This document shows, in pieces, positions 44,410 to 49,006 of a DNA stretch of 64,000 nucleotides. Numbering within the stretch: position 1 is the first letter of the stretch; each line of letters opens with the position of its first letter. Both the position numbers and the translations under genes were made by a program. The stretch covers positions 250,943 through 314,942 of the forward strand of contig NZ_JAUFPK010000004.1 of the NCBI RefSeq assembly GCF_030409225.1, given 5' to 3'. Origin of the DNA: Aquisalimonas lutea. Its GTDB lineage: Bacteria > Pseudomonadota > Gammaproteobacteria > Nitrococcales > Aquisalimonadaceae. Under the pieces are notes generated by a model. That model was not told the origin of the DNA and did not search any database. It worked only from the letters and a program-made list of their open reading frames with translations.

Positions 44410-45042
44410 TCATTTGGTGCCGAACATCCGGTCGCCGGCATCGCCGAGTCCCGGCACGATGTACGCCTTGTCATTGAGACCGCGATCAACAGCGGCCGTA
44501 AAGACGGCGACGTCGGGATGCTCCCGGTGAAACGCCTCGATCCCCTCGGGGGCGGCCAGCAGGCAGAGAAAGCGGATGCGCGACGCACCCTCGCGCTTGA
44601 GGCGGTGCACCGCGGCCGCCGCCGAGTGACCGGTGGCCAGCATGGGGTCGACGACGATCACCTCCCGCTCGTGCAGGCGGGAGGGCACCTTGAAGTAGTA
44701 CTCGACGGCCTCCAGGGTCTCCGGATCCCGGTACAGGCCGATGTGGCCGACGCGTGCGGAGGGCACCAGCTCCAGGACGCCGTCGAGCAGGCCGCTGCCG
44801 GCCCGGAGAATGGACACGAAGCACAGCTTCTTGCCGTCGAGGGCCGGTGCTTCCATGGGCTCCAGCGGCGTCTCGATGGGGATGTTGGTCAGCGGCAGGT
44901 CCCGCGTGACCTCATAGCAGAGCAGGAGCGCGGTCTCCCGCAGGATGCTCCGGAACTTGGCCGTGGAGGTGGTCTTCTGGCGCAGCTGGGTCAGCTTGTG
45001 CTGGACCAGGGGGTGCTCGACGACGTGGATGTCTCGGGTCAT
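44410..45042 (-). CDS. upp: Uracil phosphoribosyltransferase
   Basis: Salvages uracil with PRPP to UMP. It is 210 aa (E. coli 208). Motifs are [15 protein letters not shown] at the start, [14 protein letters not shown] (uracil/PRPP loop), [14 protein letters not shown] (PRPP signature) and [16 protein letters not shown] at the C-terminus, which binds uracil. No uraA permease follows; downstream is the short gap with the solitary repeat end. Upstream lie 123 bases before the membrane gene of the ECF locus. Confidence 0.97.
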
Positions 45043-45165
45043 GGTCTGCTCCGGTGAGGTGCCGAGAATGCCCCTGTAGTATGCAGGCGCGACGTGCTCC
45101 CGTTCGACAGGGAACGGGGCGGCAATGCACCCGGTCCCGAACAGGGGCCCGGAGGTGCCGGTGCC

Positions 45166-45834
45166 TCAGCGTCCCATGGGCTCGGGCACCGGCAGATGCT
45201 GTACGCCGATGGCGCCGAGCACGAACAGGCCCGGAAGGATCGCCGTGGCCAAGGCGACGGTAACCGCGAACCGGGGCCAGGTCAGCAGGCGCGTGCCGCC
45301 GTACACCAGGGCGATGCCGCCACCGCCGCCCACGGCGGTGTTGCCGGGCAGGTTGAGGAGCAGGGCGAGCGTGGCGGCCGGCACGAGGCCGGTCGGCAGG
45401 CAACGGGCGAGGCGATCCATCCGGGCCTTGAGGGAGGCGGGAATCCGTATCTGCCTTGCATACGGCTGCCAGTCCAGGTGACGGCCGATGCCGAAGGCGA
45501 GATTGAGCCCCAGGGATGTCGCCGCGTAGGCGCCCAGGGCGCCGGCTTCGCCGAAGACAACCATGATCAGCACGCCGAGCTCCACGGACGGGACGAACGG
45601 CACCGTGAGCAGCAGCATGTAGACGAGGCAGGCAAGCAGGAGCACGGTGGTACTGTCGGCCCCGGCTTCCAGCCAGTGCGGTGCCACGGAGCTGAACGGG
45701 GCCACCGTGGCGGCAACGACCGCGATCAGCGCGACAACGCGGGCGGCGTGCACCCGCCGCCGGGCCGCGGCGGCGGTGCGCAGGCAGAGCCCGGCGCGGG
45801 CGGAGCAGCGATGATCAGCGGTGTCCGGGCGCAT
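45166..45834 (-). CDS. Polytopic membrane protein under the ECF-type promoter
   Basis: A 222-aa inner-membrane protein of unknown function with about five or six hydrophobic spans: 31-49, 60-83, 86-105 (MVVFGEAGALGAYAATSLGL), 145-180 and 190-215. The sequence PFVPSVELGVLIMVVFG and the glycine-rich LNLPGNTAVGGGGGIALV give it a faint likeness to VTT/TMEM64-type proteins, but I do not recognise a family with certainty. ATG 45834 lies 74 bases downstream of a GGGAAC-N17-CGTC promoter (45908-45934) identical in type to that of the divergent sigma factor gene, so it is probably a target of that sigma factor. Confidence 0.78.
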   Translation of the reverse strand: MRPDTADHRCSARAGLCLRTAAAARRRVHAARVVALIAVVAATVAPFSSVAPHWLEAGADSTTVLLLACLVYMLLLTVPFVPSVELGVLIMVVFGEAGALGAYAATSLGLNLAFGIGRHLDWQPYARQIRIPASLKARMDRLARCLPTGLVPAATLALLLNLPGNTAVGGGGGIALVYGGTRLLTWPRFAVTVALATAILPGLFVLGAIGVQHLPVPEPMGR

Positions 45835-45907
45835 GGCTTCACCTCGGGGCCGGCGGGGTGCAGTGATCTGGCCGGGCAGCCCGGCGCTTGCCCGGGGTGC
45901 TCGCAGG

Positions 45908-45934
45908 GACGCGGGGGAACAGCGGATGGTTCCC
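45908..45934 (-). promoter_or_regulatory. ECF-type promoter, minus strand
   Basis: Read on the minus strand: GGGAAC (45934-45929), 17 bases, CGTC (45911-45908). It points at the polytopic membrane gene, whose ATG is 74 bases beyond. Identical in core and spacing to the plus-strand promoter at 45958-45984. Its -35 half and GGGAAC at 45915-45920 also form an inverted repeat. Confidence 0.72.
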
Positions 45935-45957
45935 GGTGGCCGCGCAGGGCTGTGTCC

Positions 45958-45984
45958 GGGAACGTTTCGGGCACACAATGCGTC
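45958..45984 (+). promoter_or_regulatory. ECF-type autoregulatory promoter, plus strand
   Basis: GGGAAC (45958-45963), 17 bases, CGTC (45981-45984), a standard ECF-sigma promoter form. It points at the sigma-factor gene, ATG 76 bases downstream, and so would give autoregulation. The 225-base divergent gap holds only this and the opposing copy. Confidence 0.75.
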
Positions 45985-46059
45985 CTTGGGAGACCACGGC
46001 ATCGAAGGCCGGTGGGTCCGGCGATGTCGCGTGATGGCCCCGCGACCAGGGGGCGGGGA

Positions 46060-46731
46060 ATGATGGAGCCACCAGAGCCGAATGAGCGCACGTCCCCGGA
46101 CCGGGAGAAACGCCGCCGCCTCTTCGAGCAGGAGGTGATACGCCTGATGGACCGCCTCTACGGCACCGCGCTGCGACTGACCCGGAATCCGGATGATGCC
46201 GAGGATGTGGTTGCCGAGGCGGTGGAGCGGGCATGGACCCGGCTGGATGATCTCCGTGGCTGGGAGCACTTCGAAGGGTGGTTGTTCCGCGTCCTGAACA
46301 ACACCTTCATCAGCATGTGGCGGCGCCGCCGCAGCCGCCAGGACCGGGAGACGGAATTCGACGACCCGGATTCCGCCGCGTCTCCGGACGAGCGGGATTT
46401 CTCCCTGTACCGCAAGCTGCACCAGCCGTTCCTGCTGTGGTGGGGAACGCCCCAGGACCAGTTCCTCGACCGCCTGGTCCTCGATGACCTGCAGCGCGCC
46501 CTGGACTCGCTGCCCGACCCTTTCCGGGTCGTCGTTGTGCTGGTGGAGGTCCAGGGCTATACGTATGACGAGGTAGCAGGCCTGCTGGAGATTCCGGTCG
46601 GGACCGTGCGGTCACGGCTCAGCCGCGCCCGGGCGCTGCTGCAGAAGCGGCTCTGGGAGTACGGCAACCGGCCCGCAGCCGCACGGGATCCCCGCAACGG
46701 CGGATCCTCCACCGATGGAGAGCGCCCATGA
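46060..46731 (+). CDS. ECF-subfamily RNA polymerase sigma factor
   Basis: A 223-aa group IV sigma factor. Region 2 runs about residues 20-92 (LYGTALRLTRNPDDAEDVVAEAV, then FEGWLFRVLNNTFISMWRRRRSR). A linker of about 40 residues with FDDPDSAASPDERDFSLYRKL follows. Region 4 is about 135-205 (ALDSLPDPFRVVVVLVEVQG, YDEVAGLLEIPVGTVRSRLSRARALLQ). Two consecutive ATGs (46060, 46063) follow a G-rich ribosome site. The stop overlaps the anti-sigma start (ATGA at 46728-46731). Layout with a zinc-type anti-sigma resembles SigR/RsrA loci, though the promoter motif here is of the GGAAC/CGTC kind. Confidence 0.93.
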   Translation: MMEPPEPNERTSPDREKRRRLFEQEVIRLMDRLYGTALRLTRNPDDAEDVVAEAVERAWTRLDDLRGWEHFEGWLFRVLNNTFISMWRRRRSRQDRETEFDDPDSAASPDERDFSLYRKLHQPFLLWWGTPQDQFLDRLVLDDLQRALDSLPDPFRVVVVLVEVQGYTYDEVAGLLEIPVGTVRSRLSRARALLQKRLWEYGNRPAAARDPRNGGSSTDGERP

Positions 46732-46964
46732 GCAGCGATTCCCTCACCTGCGAGGAGGTCATCAGGCAGCTCTTCGCGTACCTGGACCGGGAGCTGGACA
46801 CCCAGGTCAGCGCCGAGATCGACCGTCATCTGGAAACATGCCGCGAGTGCTTCAGCCGGGCGGAGTTCGAGCGGCGGTTGCGGCAGAAGGTCCGCGAGAC
46901 GGCCCGGGAGGAGCCGCCGGAGCGACTGCAGCGCCGTATCCGGGCAATGCTCGACCGGTACTGA
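46728..46964 (+). CDS. Zinc-type (ZAS) anti-sigma factor
   Basis: A soluble 78-aa anti-sigma factor. The zinc-binding set is C8, H34, C38 and C41 (H-x3-C-x2-C in DRHLETCRECF). The spacing 26, 4, 3 between these residues is the same as C11, H37, C41, C44 of Streptomyces RsrA, which releases its sigma factor when a disulfide forms. No membrane segment is present, so the signal is cytoplasmic. The start overlaps the sigma stop, giving equal synthesis of the pair. Function follows from family and position; redox sensing is inference. Confidence 0.88.
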   Translation: MSSDSLTCEEVIRQLFAYLDRELDTQVSAEIDRHLETCRECFSRAEFERRLRQKVRETAREEPPERLQRRIRAMLDRY

Positions 46965-47001
46965 AACGGGGGATGCCCCCCAGGGGGAAGGGGAGGCTCG
47001 G

Positions 47002-48234
47002 ATGGTCGCTATCCTCGGTTATTCACGGGAGCAGATCTTCGCCGCGGTCAAGGAGATGTACACCACCGTGGCCGAGGCGCCGTCGTCGCCGTTCCATTTC
47101 CCGGTGGGACGTCCGGCGTGCGAGACACTGGGGTACACGCGCGAGCGCATCGAATCCGTGCCGTGGCAGTTGGTGGCGTCGTTCGCCGGCGTGGGCTGTC
47201 CGTTCAACGGCGAGGCCGTCGGCGTCGGCGACACGGCCCTTGATATCGGCGCCGGGGCCGGGAACGACTCCTTCATCGCCAGCGACATGGTCGGCCCCGG
47301 CGGGCGGGTGATCGCCATGGACATCACGCCGGCGATGGCGCGCAAGCTTGCTGAAACCGTCCGCGAAGCCGGTGTCGGCAACATCGACGTCCTGCTGGGC
47401 TCGGCGGAGCAGCTTCCCCTGCGCGACGGCGCCGTGGACAGCATCACCAGCAACGGGGTGCTCAACCTGGTTCCCGACAAGCGCCGCGCAGTCGCCGAGA
47501 TGTTCCGCGTGCTGCGCCCGGACGGGCGCCTGCAGATCGCCGACGTCGTCATCGACCGCCCGGTGAGCGTGGACTGCCACACGGACCCCCGGCTGTGGGT
47601 GGAGTGCGTGGTCGGAGCGACGGTGGAAGAAGACTTCCTGGCCCTGTTCCGGGATGCCGGATTCGAGGACGTGCATATCGTGCGCAGCATCGACTACTTC
47701 GCTCACAGTCCCAGCGCGCAGACCCGGGAGATCGCCGCGAGCTTCGGCGCGCGCTCCATCGAGGTAACCATGCGGCGGGGCCCGGTGGCGCCGAGTCGGG
47801 CACGGCAGTTCCTGCAGCGCATGAACCCCCGGCGCGTGGTCGCCTCGCTGTGGCGGCGCGGGTTCATGGGCGTTGCCGGGCTCGGCCTGGCCCTGCTGAC
47901 GTGCTACGGCACCGTTGTCGCGTTGACGCTGCTGGCAACCCTGGGCATGGGGCTGACCCTGGACCGGACCCTCTGGTCGGGGGCGATCGCGGGCTTTGCA
48001 TGGCTGACGGTGGCGGCCGTGGCACCGGGATCGCGTTTTCACGGGCGACCGTGGCCGGCCGTGGCGGCCGCGACCGGAGCGGCCGTCGTGTCCTTCGCGC
48101 TTTTCGTCCACTACTGGTTCGTGATCGAGCTCGGCGGCTTTCTGCTGCTGGGCGCCGCGGTATGGTGGGACATCCGGGCGAGGCGTCGGCAGGAGAGCCG
48201 GATCCTCGGGCTGGATGCCCATGCCGGGTCGTGA
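47002..48234 (+). CDS. ArsM-like methyltransferase fused to a four-span membrane domain
   Basis: A 410-aa fusion. Residues 1-255 are a class I methyltransferase with the SAM motif ALDIGAGAGNDS (79-90), MDITPAM and SNGVLNLVPDK, most like arsenite methyltransferases. C66 (AGVGCPF) and C202 (WVECVVGA) fall where ArsM has its metalloid-binding cysteines; C192 is extra. Residues 289-390 hold four hydrophobic spans (about 289-311, 324-342, 353-371, 373-390), with a cysteine at 301 (LLTCYGT), a little like MerC-type modules. It lies 37 bases after the anti-sigma gene behind a good ribosome site (GGGGAGG), so it is in the ECF operon. A metal- or chalcogen-methylating role is inference; another small substrate is possible. 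Confidence 0.83.
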   Translation: MVAILGYSREQIFAAVKEMYTTVAEAPSSPFHFPVGRPACETLGYTRERIESVPWQLVASFAGVGCPFNGEAVGVGDTALDIGAGAGNDSFIASDMVGPGGRVIAMDITPAMARKLAETVREAGVGNIDVLLGSAEQLPLRDGAVDSITSNGVLNLVPDKRRAVAEMFRVLRPDGRLQIADVVIDRPVSVDCHTDPRLWVECVVGATVEEDFLALFRDAGFEDVHIVRSIDYFAHSPSAQTREIAASFGARSIEVTMRRGPVAPSRARQFLQRMNPRRVVASLWRRGFMGVAGLGLALLTCYGTVVALTLLATLGMGLTLDRTLWSGAIAGFAWLTVAAVAPGSRFHGRPWPAVAAATGAAVVSFALFVHYWFVIELGGFLLLGAAVWWDIRARRRQESRILGLDAHAGS

Positions 48235-48316
48235 TCATGCCGGGCAGGGATGGGTTGGTGCCGGCGGCCGGGCCGTTGTAATCTAGTTTCATGAATGGAA
48301 TTCCGGGGCGGAACAG

Positions 48317-49006
48317 GTGGATGCCCGCCGCGTCCCCCGGATTCAATGGCAGGAGCTGACGCTGAACGCCGGGGCCGACGATACTACCTCTTTCTGTGAC
48401 CGGATTGCCCGCTGCCTCCATGATGCCGAGGCAGTGCAGCGGCCGGGATTCCCCTTCGATCCCGCGCGGTTGCGCAACGCCGCCGTACTCGTGCCGCTGA
48501 TCGACCGGCCCGACGGCGTGCACGTCCTTCTGACGCGGCGCAGCGAGTTCCTGAACAAGCACGCCGGCCAGATCAGCTTCCCGGGCGGACGTATCGAGCC
48601 GTCGGACGCCACGCCGCTGGCCGCGGCGCTCCGCGAAACCGAGGAAGAGATCGGGCTGGCGGCCCCCCAGATCCAGGTGCTCGGCGGGCTTCCCCGGTAC
48701 CCGACGATTACCGGGTTCATGATCCACCCCTACGTCGGCTTCGTGCGCGAGTCGGGGCTGCTGGTACCGCAGCCGGAAGAGGTCGCGGAGATCTTCGAGG
48801 TGCCGCTGGGATTCCTGCTCGACCCCGCCAACCATCGGCCTCACCAGGTGGAGCACCAGGGCAGGACGTACCACGTGGATTCCATGCCGTACGGCGAGTA
48901 CTTCATCTGGGGCGCCACGGCAGCGATCTTCCGGGCATTCTACGACCGGCTGCGCGCGGGCGCCCCCGAGCTGTTGCCCGCATCGGTGCCGTGCGACGAG
49001 CGCTAG
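48317..49006 (+). CDS. nudL: Nudix hydrolase (CoA pyrophosphatase, NudL-like)
   Basis: A 229-aa Nudix enzyme. The box GGRIEPSDATPLAAALRETEEEIGL (written in the usual consensus G-x5-E-x7-REUxEExGU) spans about residues 92-116. The preceding LLTRRSEFLNKHAGQISFPGG is the UPF0035/CoA-pyrophosphatase signature, so hydrolysis of CoA or acyl-CoA to phosphopantetheine and 3',5'-ADP is the likely reaction. The start is GTG 48317 without a strong ribosome site; the exact start is uncertain. Its last four bases (CTAG) are shared with the convergent FAH gene. Confidence 0.9.
   Translation: MDARRVPRIQWQELTLNAGADDTTSFCDRIARCLHDAEAVQRPGFPFDPARLRNAAVLVPLIDRPDGVHVLLTRRSEFLNKHAGQISFPGGRIEPSDATPLAAALRETEEEIGLAAPQIQVLGGLPRYPTITGFMIHPYVGFVRESGLLVPQPEEVAEIFEVPLGFLLDPANHRPHQVEHQGRTYHVDSMPYGEYFIWGATAAIFRAFYDRLRAGAPELLPASVPCDER

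Follow-up and report, generated by a model that had tools for sequence, protein, structure and literature searches.

Autoregulated ECF sigma factors paired with a zinc-binding anti-sigma factor are a known kind of system. The promoters of SigH have the form GGAAYR-N17-GTT (PMC4803200), and soluble zinc-binding anti-sigma factors are often tied to intracellular redox sensing (PMC7406223). In Haemophilus influenzae, the ECF sigma factor RpoE2 controls neighbouring genes under oxidative (HOCl) stress (PMC7907618). In the hrpL-hrpJ region of Pseudomonas syringae, RNA polymerase bound with its sigma factor at one of two divergent promoters represses the other, affecting expression of the sigma gene (PMC5263251). 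The locus described here lies in the window (the whole 64-kb stretch of DNA that was analysed), where an ECF sigma gene on the plus strand and a membrane gene on the minus strand are separated by an intergenic gap of 225 bp (45835-46059; Table 1). In our main reading, to which we assign a probability of roughly 0.86 on comparative grounds, this gap would carry two promoters, placed back to back and read by the adjacent sigma factor, which a redox or metal signal would release from its zinc anti-sigma factor, and the same sigma factor would serve an unlinked operon consisting of a UbiE-like methyltransferase (MT2) and DsrE. Literature searches for the sigma factor with methyltransferase, MerC, Halomonas or Marinobacter returned nothing relevant; no earlier description of the promoter code and target set was found in the literature searched, and the phased geometry considered below is possibly novel.

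Table 1. Genes and predicted promoter elements of the sigma locus (window coordinates)
Feature	Coordinates	Strand	Description
Polytopic membrane protein	45166..45834	-	222 aa; predicted target of the minus-strand site; DedA/VTT resemblance distant, by motif only
Predicted ECF promoter, facing membrane gene	45904..45935	-	C-GGGAAC-N16-GCGTCC-CTG; -35 at 45934-45929, CGTC at 45911-45908
Gap between the two GGAAC boxes	45934..45958		25 bp; belongs to the recurrent 22-26 bp class
Predicted ECF promoter, sigma operon	45957..45988	+	C-GGGAAC-N16-GCGTCC-TTG; -35 at 45958-45963, CGTC at 45981-45984
ECF sigma factor	46060..46731	+	223 aa; SigH-like; linker FSLYRKLHQPFLLWWGTP; Pfam Sigma70_r2/r4_2
Zinc-binding (ZAS) anti-sigma factor	46728..46964	+	78 aa; soluble; 4-bp overlap of its start with the sigma stop
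ArsM-like SAM methyltransferase with C-terminal MerC-like membrane domain	47002..48234	+	Pfam Methyltransf_31, MerC (E 1e-7); ArsM 5evj (E 2e-27)

The initial annotation had reported GGGAAC-N17-CGTC on both strands of this gap, each copy about 75 bases from its ATG, and the coordinates bore this out: the spacer is N17 in each copy, and CGTC is situated 73 nt from the ATG at 45834 (minus strand) and 75 nt from the ATG at 46060 (plus strand). Taken alone, the bare pattern was statistically unremarkable: at spacings of 15-18 the window contained 2 matches against 0.9 expected, and 20 of 100 window shuffles also reached two. The genome-wide search for GGGAAC-spacer-CGTC that had been proposed as a check did produce 31 matches in the 4.2-Mb genome, but the reversed control was commoner (45 matches), so that the bare motif was not enriched there; these counts, like the other genome-wide statements given here, come from exact-core pattern searches, which sites with a degenerate core could escape. 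The meaning of the pattern therefore had to be tested by comparison with relatives. What went beyond chance was the presence of two back-to-back sites in one gap, together with their conservation in these relatives.

A search of the family and order turned up eight orthologues of the sigma factor (55-65% identity), and a collection of 84,980 species contained 80 named loci, carried mostly by Halomonadaceae, Marinobacter, Ectothiorhodospiraceae and Saccharospirillum; some belong to Alpha-/Betaproteobacteria and Nitrospirae. Of the 46 loci that have a divergent neighbour and were kept after dereplication, 38 had GGAAC-N17-CGTC directed at the sigma gene, 42 had it directed at the facing gene and 37 had both; any other spacing was seen in three loci at most, and the reversed pattern was absent at N17 and present at most once at any spacing. 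An autoregulated ECF sigma factor is expected to have a GGAAC-type -35 box and a GT-containing -10 box at a constant distance ahead of its own gene, and 38/46 loci show this arrangement at N17. Autoregulation is not universal, since five close relatives (L062/L072, L063, L065/L086, L066, L068/L104) had no recognisable site toward the sigma gene. In more distant relatives (L117, L120, L124, L129, L137, L140, L142) the sigma-ward site had a 16-bp spacer instead of the 17-bp one (scores 8-20). In codirectional loci the site moved ahead of the first gene (L122, L132, L135, L141).

The extended consensus of the sites was C-GGGAAC-[CA]-n-T-T-N-[TC]-GCGTCC-[T/C]-[T/G]-G. A scoring matrix was built from 78 sites, excluding the window, and the lowest score of a trained site was 18.5; the training sites were chosen by a fixed pattern, which biases the matrix toward that pattern. 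The two sites in the window scored 25.6 (minus strand) and 24.7 (plus strand), and the next-best of about 128,000 positions scored 4.2, i.e. 20 bits lower. The shuffles and the commoner reversed pattern described above might suggest that both motifs arose by chance in GC-rich DNA, but this explanation, to which we give practically no weight, is already contradicted by conservation: a single spacing is kept in dozens of species, the reversed twin pattern had zero matches in 438 genomes and the matrix scores are far above background. It is very probable that the adjacent sigma factor uses both sites as ECF promoters, the plus-strand site for the sigma/anti-sigma/methyltransferase-MerC operon and the minus-strand site for the membrane gene.

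In all 84 loci analysed the sigma gene and the gene of a small zinc-finger anti-sigma factor were adjacent, an ArsM-like methyltransferase gene came next in nearly all, and a MerC-like domain ended the methyltransferase in 63. The sigma factor has the regions 2 and 4 only that define the ECF (group 4) type (PF04542, 50.7 bits; PF08281, 55.5 bits; TIGR02937, 94.7 bits vs a cut-off of 42.9). Its best PDB relatives were Mycobacterium tuberculosis SigH structures 6jcy and 5zx2 (E 2e-31 and 6e-30), while the score of 132 bits with TIGR02947 (SigH_actino) was below the curated cut-off of 251.55. The 78-aa anti-sigma factor matched zf-HC2 (E 5e-10) and RsrA (5frf, E 1e-4) and had no obvious membrane segment; the ZAS signature, a C followed by H-x3-C-x2-C, was invariant in 84/84 proteins, with a C-to-H distance of 26 residues.

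The methyltransferase reached 32.8 bits with the MerC model PF03203 (gathering score 27.6) and remained below the PRK11873 cut-off. The catalytic SNC motif of ArsM was replaced by SNG in all 82 aligned relatives, and a downstream cysteine (LWxEC) was retained in 80 of them. The loss of the SNC cysteine makes classical arsenite methylation doubtful, and it was disfavoured as the activity of this protein. The facing gene differed between the loci: it encoded a cupin in 25, a second ArsM-like methyltransferase in another 25 and MT2 in two, and in the window the membrane gene stood alone. In locus L064 a stand-alone MerC-like gene (41.1 bits) faced the sigma operon, with MT2, a YHS-domain gene and DsrE as neighbours. 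The membrane protein had no match in Pfam or NCBIfam, DedA/VTT families included; its structure model was of medium confidence (pLDDT 75) with no PDB match below E 1, and plasmid homologues of its gene were not found. Its predicted membership in the regulon is supported by loci L073 and L084, where the membrane gene and MT2 form a separate divergent pair, each with a site in front, because these homologues again have the site in front of them at another place.

The extended pattern was largely confined to the sigma locus, which held 20 of the 23 matches found in 12 genomes (3.6-5.5 Mb). The initial annotation had ascribed to the adjacent sigma factor the control of its own operon and of the membrane gene, which comparative genomics upheld, and had seen in these genes a complete regulon in 3 kb, which was not borne out, given the unlinked sites in this and other genomes. 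The best-scoring site found in the window's genome (35.8), and the only other convincing one, lay on another contig (C13), where it preceded an MT2-DsrE operon by 66 bp. MT2 was preceded by a site in five sigma-bearing genomes (G000, the genome of the window, G038, G034, G066 and G064) and had none in the three genomes without a sigma orthologue (G001, G004, G022); in G011 and G065 both the sigma factor and MT2 were present, the latter without a site. Unlinked sites scoring 27-32 were also seen in another set of 30 genomes. These were found ahead of MT2 (G071, G083), ahead of a secreted truncated globin (Bac_globin) in the Halomonadaceae genomes G073 and G082 (L236: 983-1456 and L237: 1659-2132; 30.9 and 29.1), and ahead of a conserved protein of 102 aa, which belongs to no Pfam or NCBIfam family, in the Halomonas genomes G085 and G088 (L246: 1585-1893 and L249: 1146-1454; 31.8 and 27.3). 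The globin as a predicted target may hint at a nitrosative or oxidative signal. The sigma factor thus seems to control at least one further methyltransferase operon elsewhere in the genome, judging from these site matches, and the regulon would be small but not limited to 3 kb. A site 176 bp upstream of ahcY, encoding S-adenosylhomocysteine hydrolase (C1:125033-125059, L032), scored 11.7, below every trained site, and ahcY was therefore not counted as a target; control of this gene would fit well with a regulon of methyltransferases.

A sigma paralogue with 43% identity (C13:154920-155492; L069: 6446-7114) immediately precedes the strongest site and its MT2-DsrE operon; it has no adjacent anti-sigma gene and reads GAVQAQL in region 4 in place of the GTVRSRL of the family. 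Its presence bears on the question of which sigma factor reads the sites. The pairing with the adjacent one, which we infer from linkage and co-occurrence, leaves room for another ECF sigma factor of the same cell, which could read them. In that case an RpoE-like factor or the C13 paralogue would recognise the promoters and the adjacent sigma gene would be merely one of the targets; the genome does hold several further ECF-like matches besides the paralogue, and the GGAAC -35 box is common to many ECF sigma factors. We consider this improbable, however, given the concentration of the extended motif at the locus of this very sigma factor and the lack of the site ahead of MT2 in genomes lacking it, while the paralogue is further disfavoured as the reader by the missing anti-sigma neighbour and its diverged region 4.

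The distance between the two -35 boxes in the twin loci fell into clusters of 3-5, 10-13, 22-26, 31-35, 39, 43-48 and 55 bp. In the dereplicated set (n=37) the scan for a period peaked at 10.5-10.75 bp (R 0.59), and the observed periodicity was reached by none of the jittered data sets, either in the scan (0/4,000) or at a fixed period (0/20,000); tree-based thinning (n=34) gave a period-scan p of 0.0005. The periodicity test was devised post hoc and shared descent was only partly removed from these statistics, so that helical phasing is regarded as a lead. It is conceivable, although we would sooner bet against it, that the twin promoters are one phased bidirectional unit with the gap under selection for helical phase. 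If so, two sigma holoenzymes, or one choosing its direction, would interact from the same side of the double helix, and autoregulation would be coupled to the output of the facing gene.

A helical period of the inter-box gaps would also be expected from cooperating DNA-bound proteins, which raises the question of whether the boxes are operators of a separate repressor or activator instead of promoters. The window even contains a perfect inverted repeat, GGGAAC-N8-GTTCCC, at 45915-45934, inside the spacer of the minus-strand promoter, but this repeat was present in only 1 of 51 twin loci, being private to the window, and is therefore probably incidental. The sites are, moreover, directional: they have the -35/-10 architecture of ECF promoters, are aimed at the operon they precede and occur singly at the unlinked targets, and no sigma70-like promoter was found at 45000-48400. 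Operators in place of promoters are accordingly very unlikely in our opinion.

In the mechanism that we propose, the sigma factor would be held in the resting state by the small zinc anti-sigma factor, and a thiol-reactive, oxidative or metal signal would release both the zinc and the sigma factor, as the RsrA-like anti-sigma factor suggests. Given the redox link of soluble zinc-binding anti-sigma factors mentioned at the outset, we regard a thiol or metal signal as the most plausible guess and not as a result. The holoenzyme would then read CGGGAAC-N16-GCGTCC in both directions. Rightward transcription would yield the sigma factor, the anti-sigma factor and the ArsM-like methyltransferase-MerC protein, combining positive autoregulation with its own brake, while leftward transcription would yield the membrane protein. 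For the unlinked methyltransferase-DsrE operon of this genome, the holoenzyme would likewise read a stronger promoter copy. The methyltransferases may have a detoxifying role.

From sequence alone it was possible to define the promoter code and the compact predicted regulon of an ECF sigma factor and its zinc anti-sigma factor, a widespread pair that occurs chiefly in halophilic Gammaproteobacteria. An unexplained stress or detoxification response becomes testable through the set of predicted targets: ArsM-like methyltransferases that lack one ArsM cysteine, together with MerC, cupin, DsrE, truncated globin and the membrane protein. Having a defined motif and essentially one or two promoters in each genome, the system also offers a simple case for asking why an ECF sigma factor has two identical promoters in back-to-back arrangement and if their helical phase is of consequence.

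Among the described systems, SigH-RshA and SigR-RsrA are similar in that SigH is nearest to our sigma factor among solved structures and the anti-sigma factor shares the RsrA signature C...H-x3-C-x2-C; GGAA at -35 and GT at -10 are likewise found at the same spacing (PMC4803200, PMC10012870). Written in the manner of the SigH promoters, the sites here are GGAAC-N18-GTC, i.e. equally spaced with GTC replacing GTT. The -10 box is CGTCC[T/C][T/G]G, not GTT, and the TIGR02947 cut-off is not reached. In contrast to M. tuberculosis SigH with at least 25 genes, the regulon is very small, consisting of methyltransferases and membrane proteins, and the hosts are Proteobacteria plus some Nitrospirae and not the Actinobacteria of SigH/SigR. 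RpoE2 of H. influenzae is likewise a gammaproteobacterial ECF sigma factor with a short cytoplasmic anti-sigma factor, but its targets are msrAB and a transporter, its autoregulation is reported to be weak and it has no methyltransferase module (PMC7907618). The hrpL-hrpJ region resembles our locus in that one intergenic region is shared by an ECF sigma gene and a sigma-dependent promoter facing it (PMC5263251); hrpL itself, however, is sigma54-dependent and negatively controlled, whereas here the same predicted ECF promoter is present in either direction. The fusion protein is similar to ArsM in its N-terminal domain, which aligns with ArsM structures, and to MerC in its C-terminal domain, which exceeds the Pfam cut-off; it differs from ArsM in the glycine at the SNC cysteine position (82/82 relatives) and in the score under the PRK11873 cut-off. 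To our knowledge, both this fusion partner and the ECF control are unlike those of known ars or mer operons.
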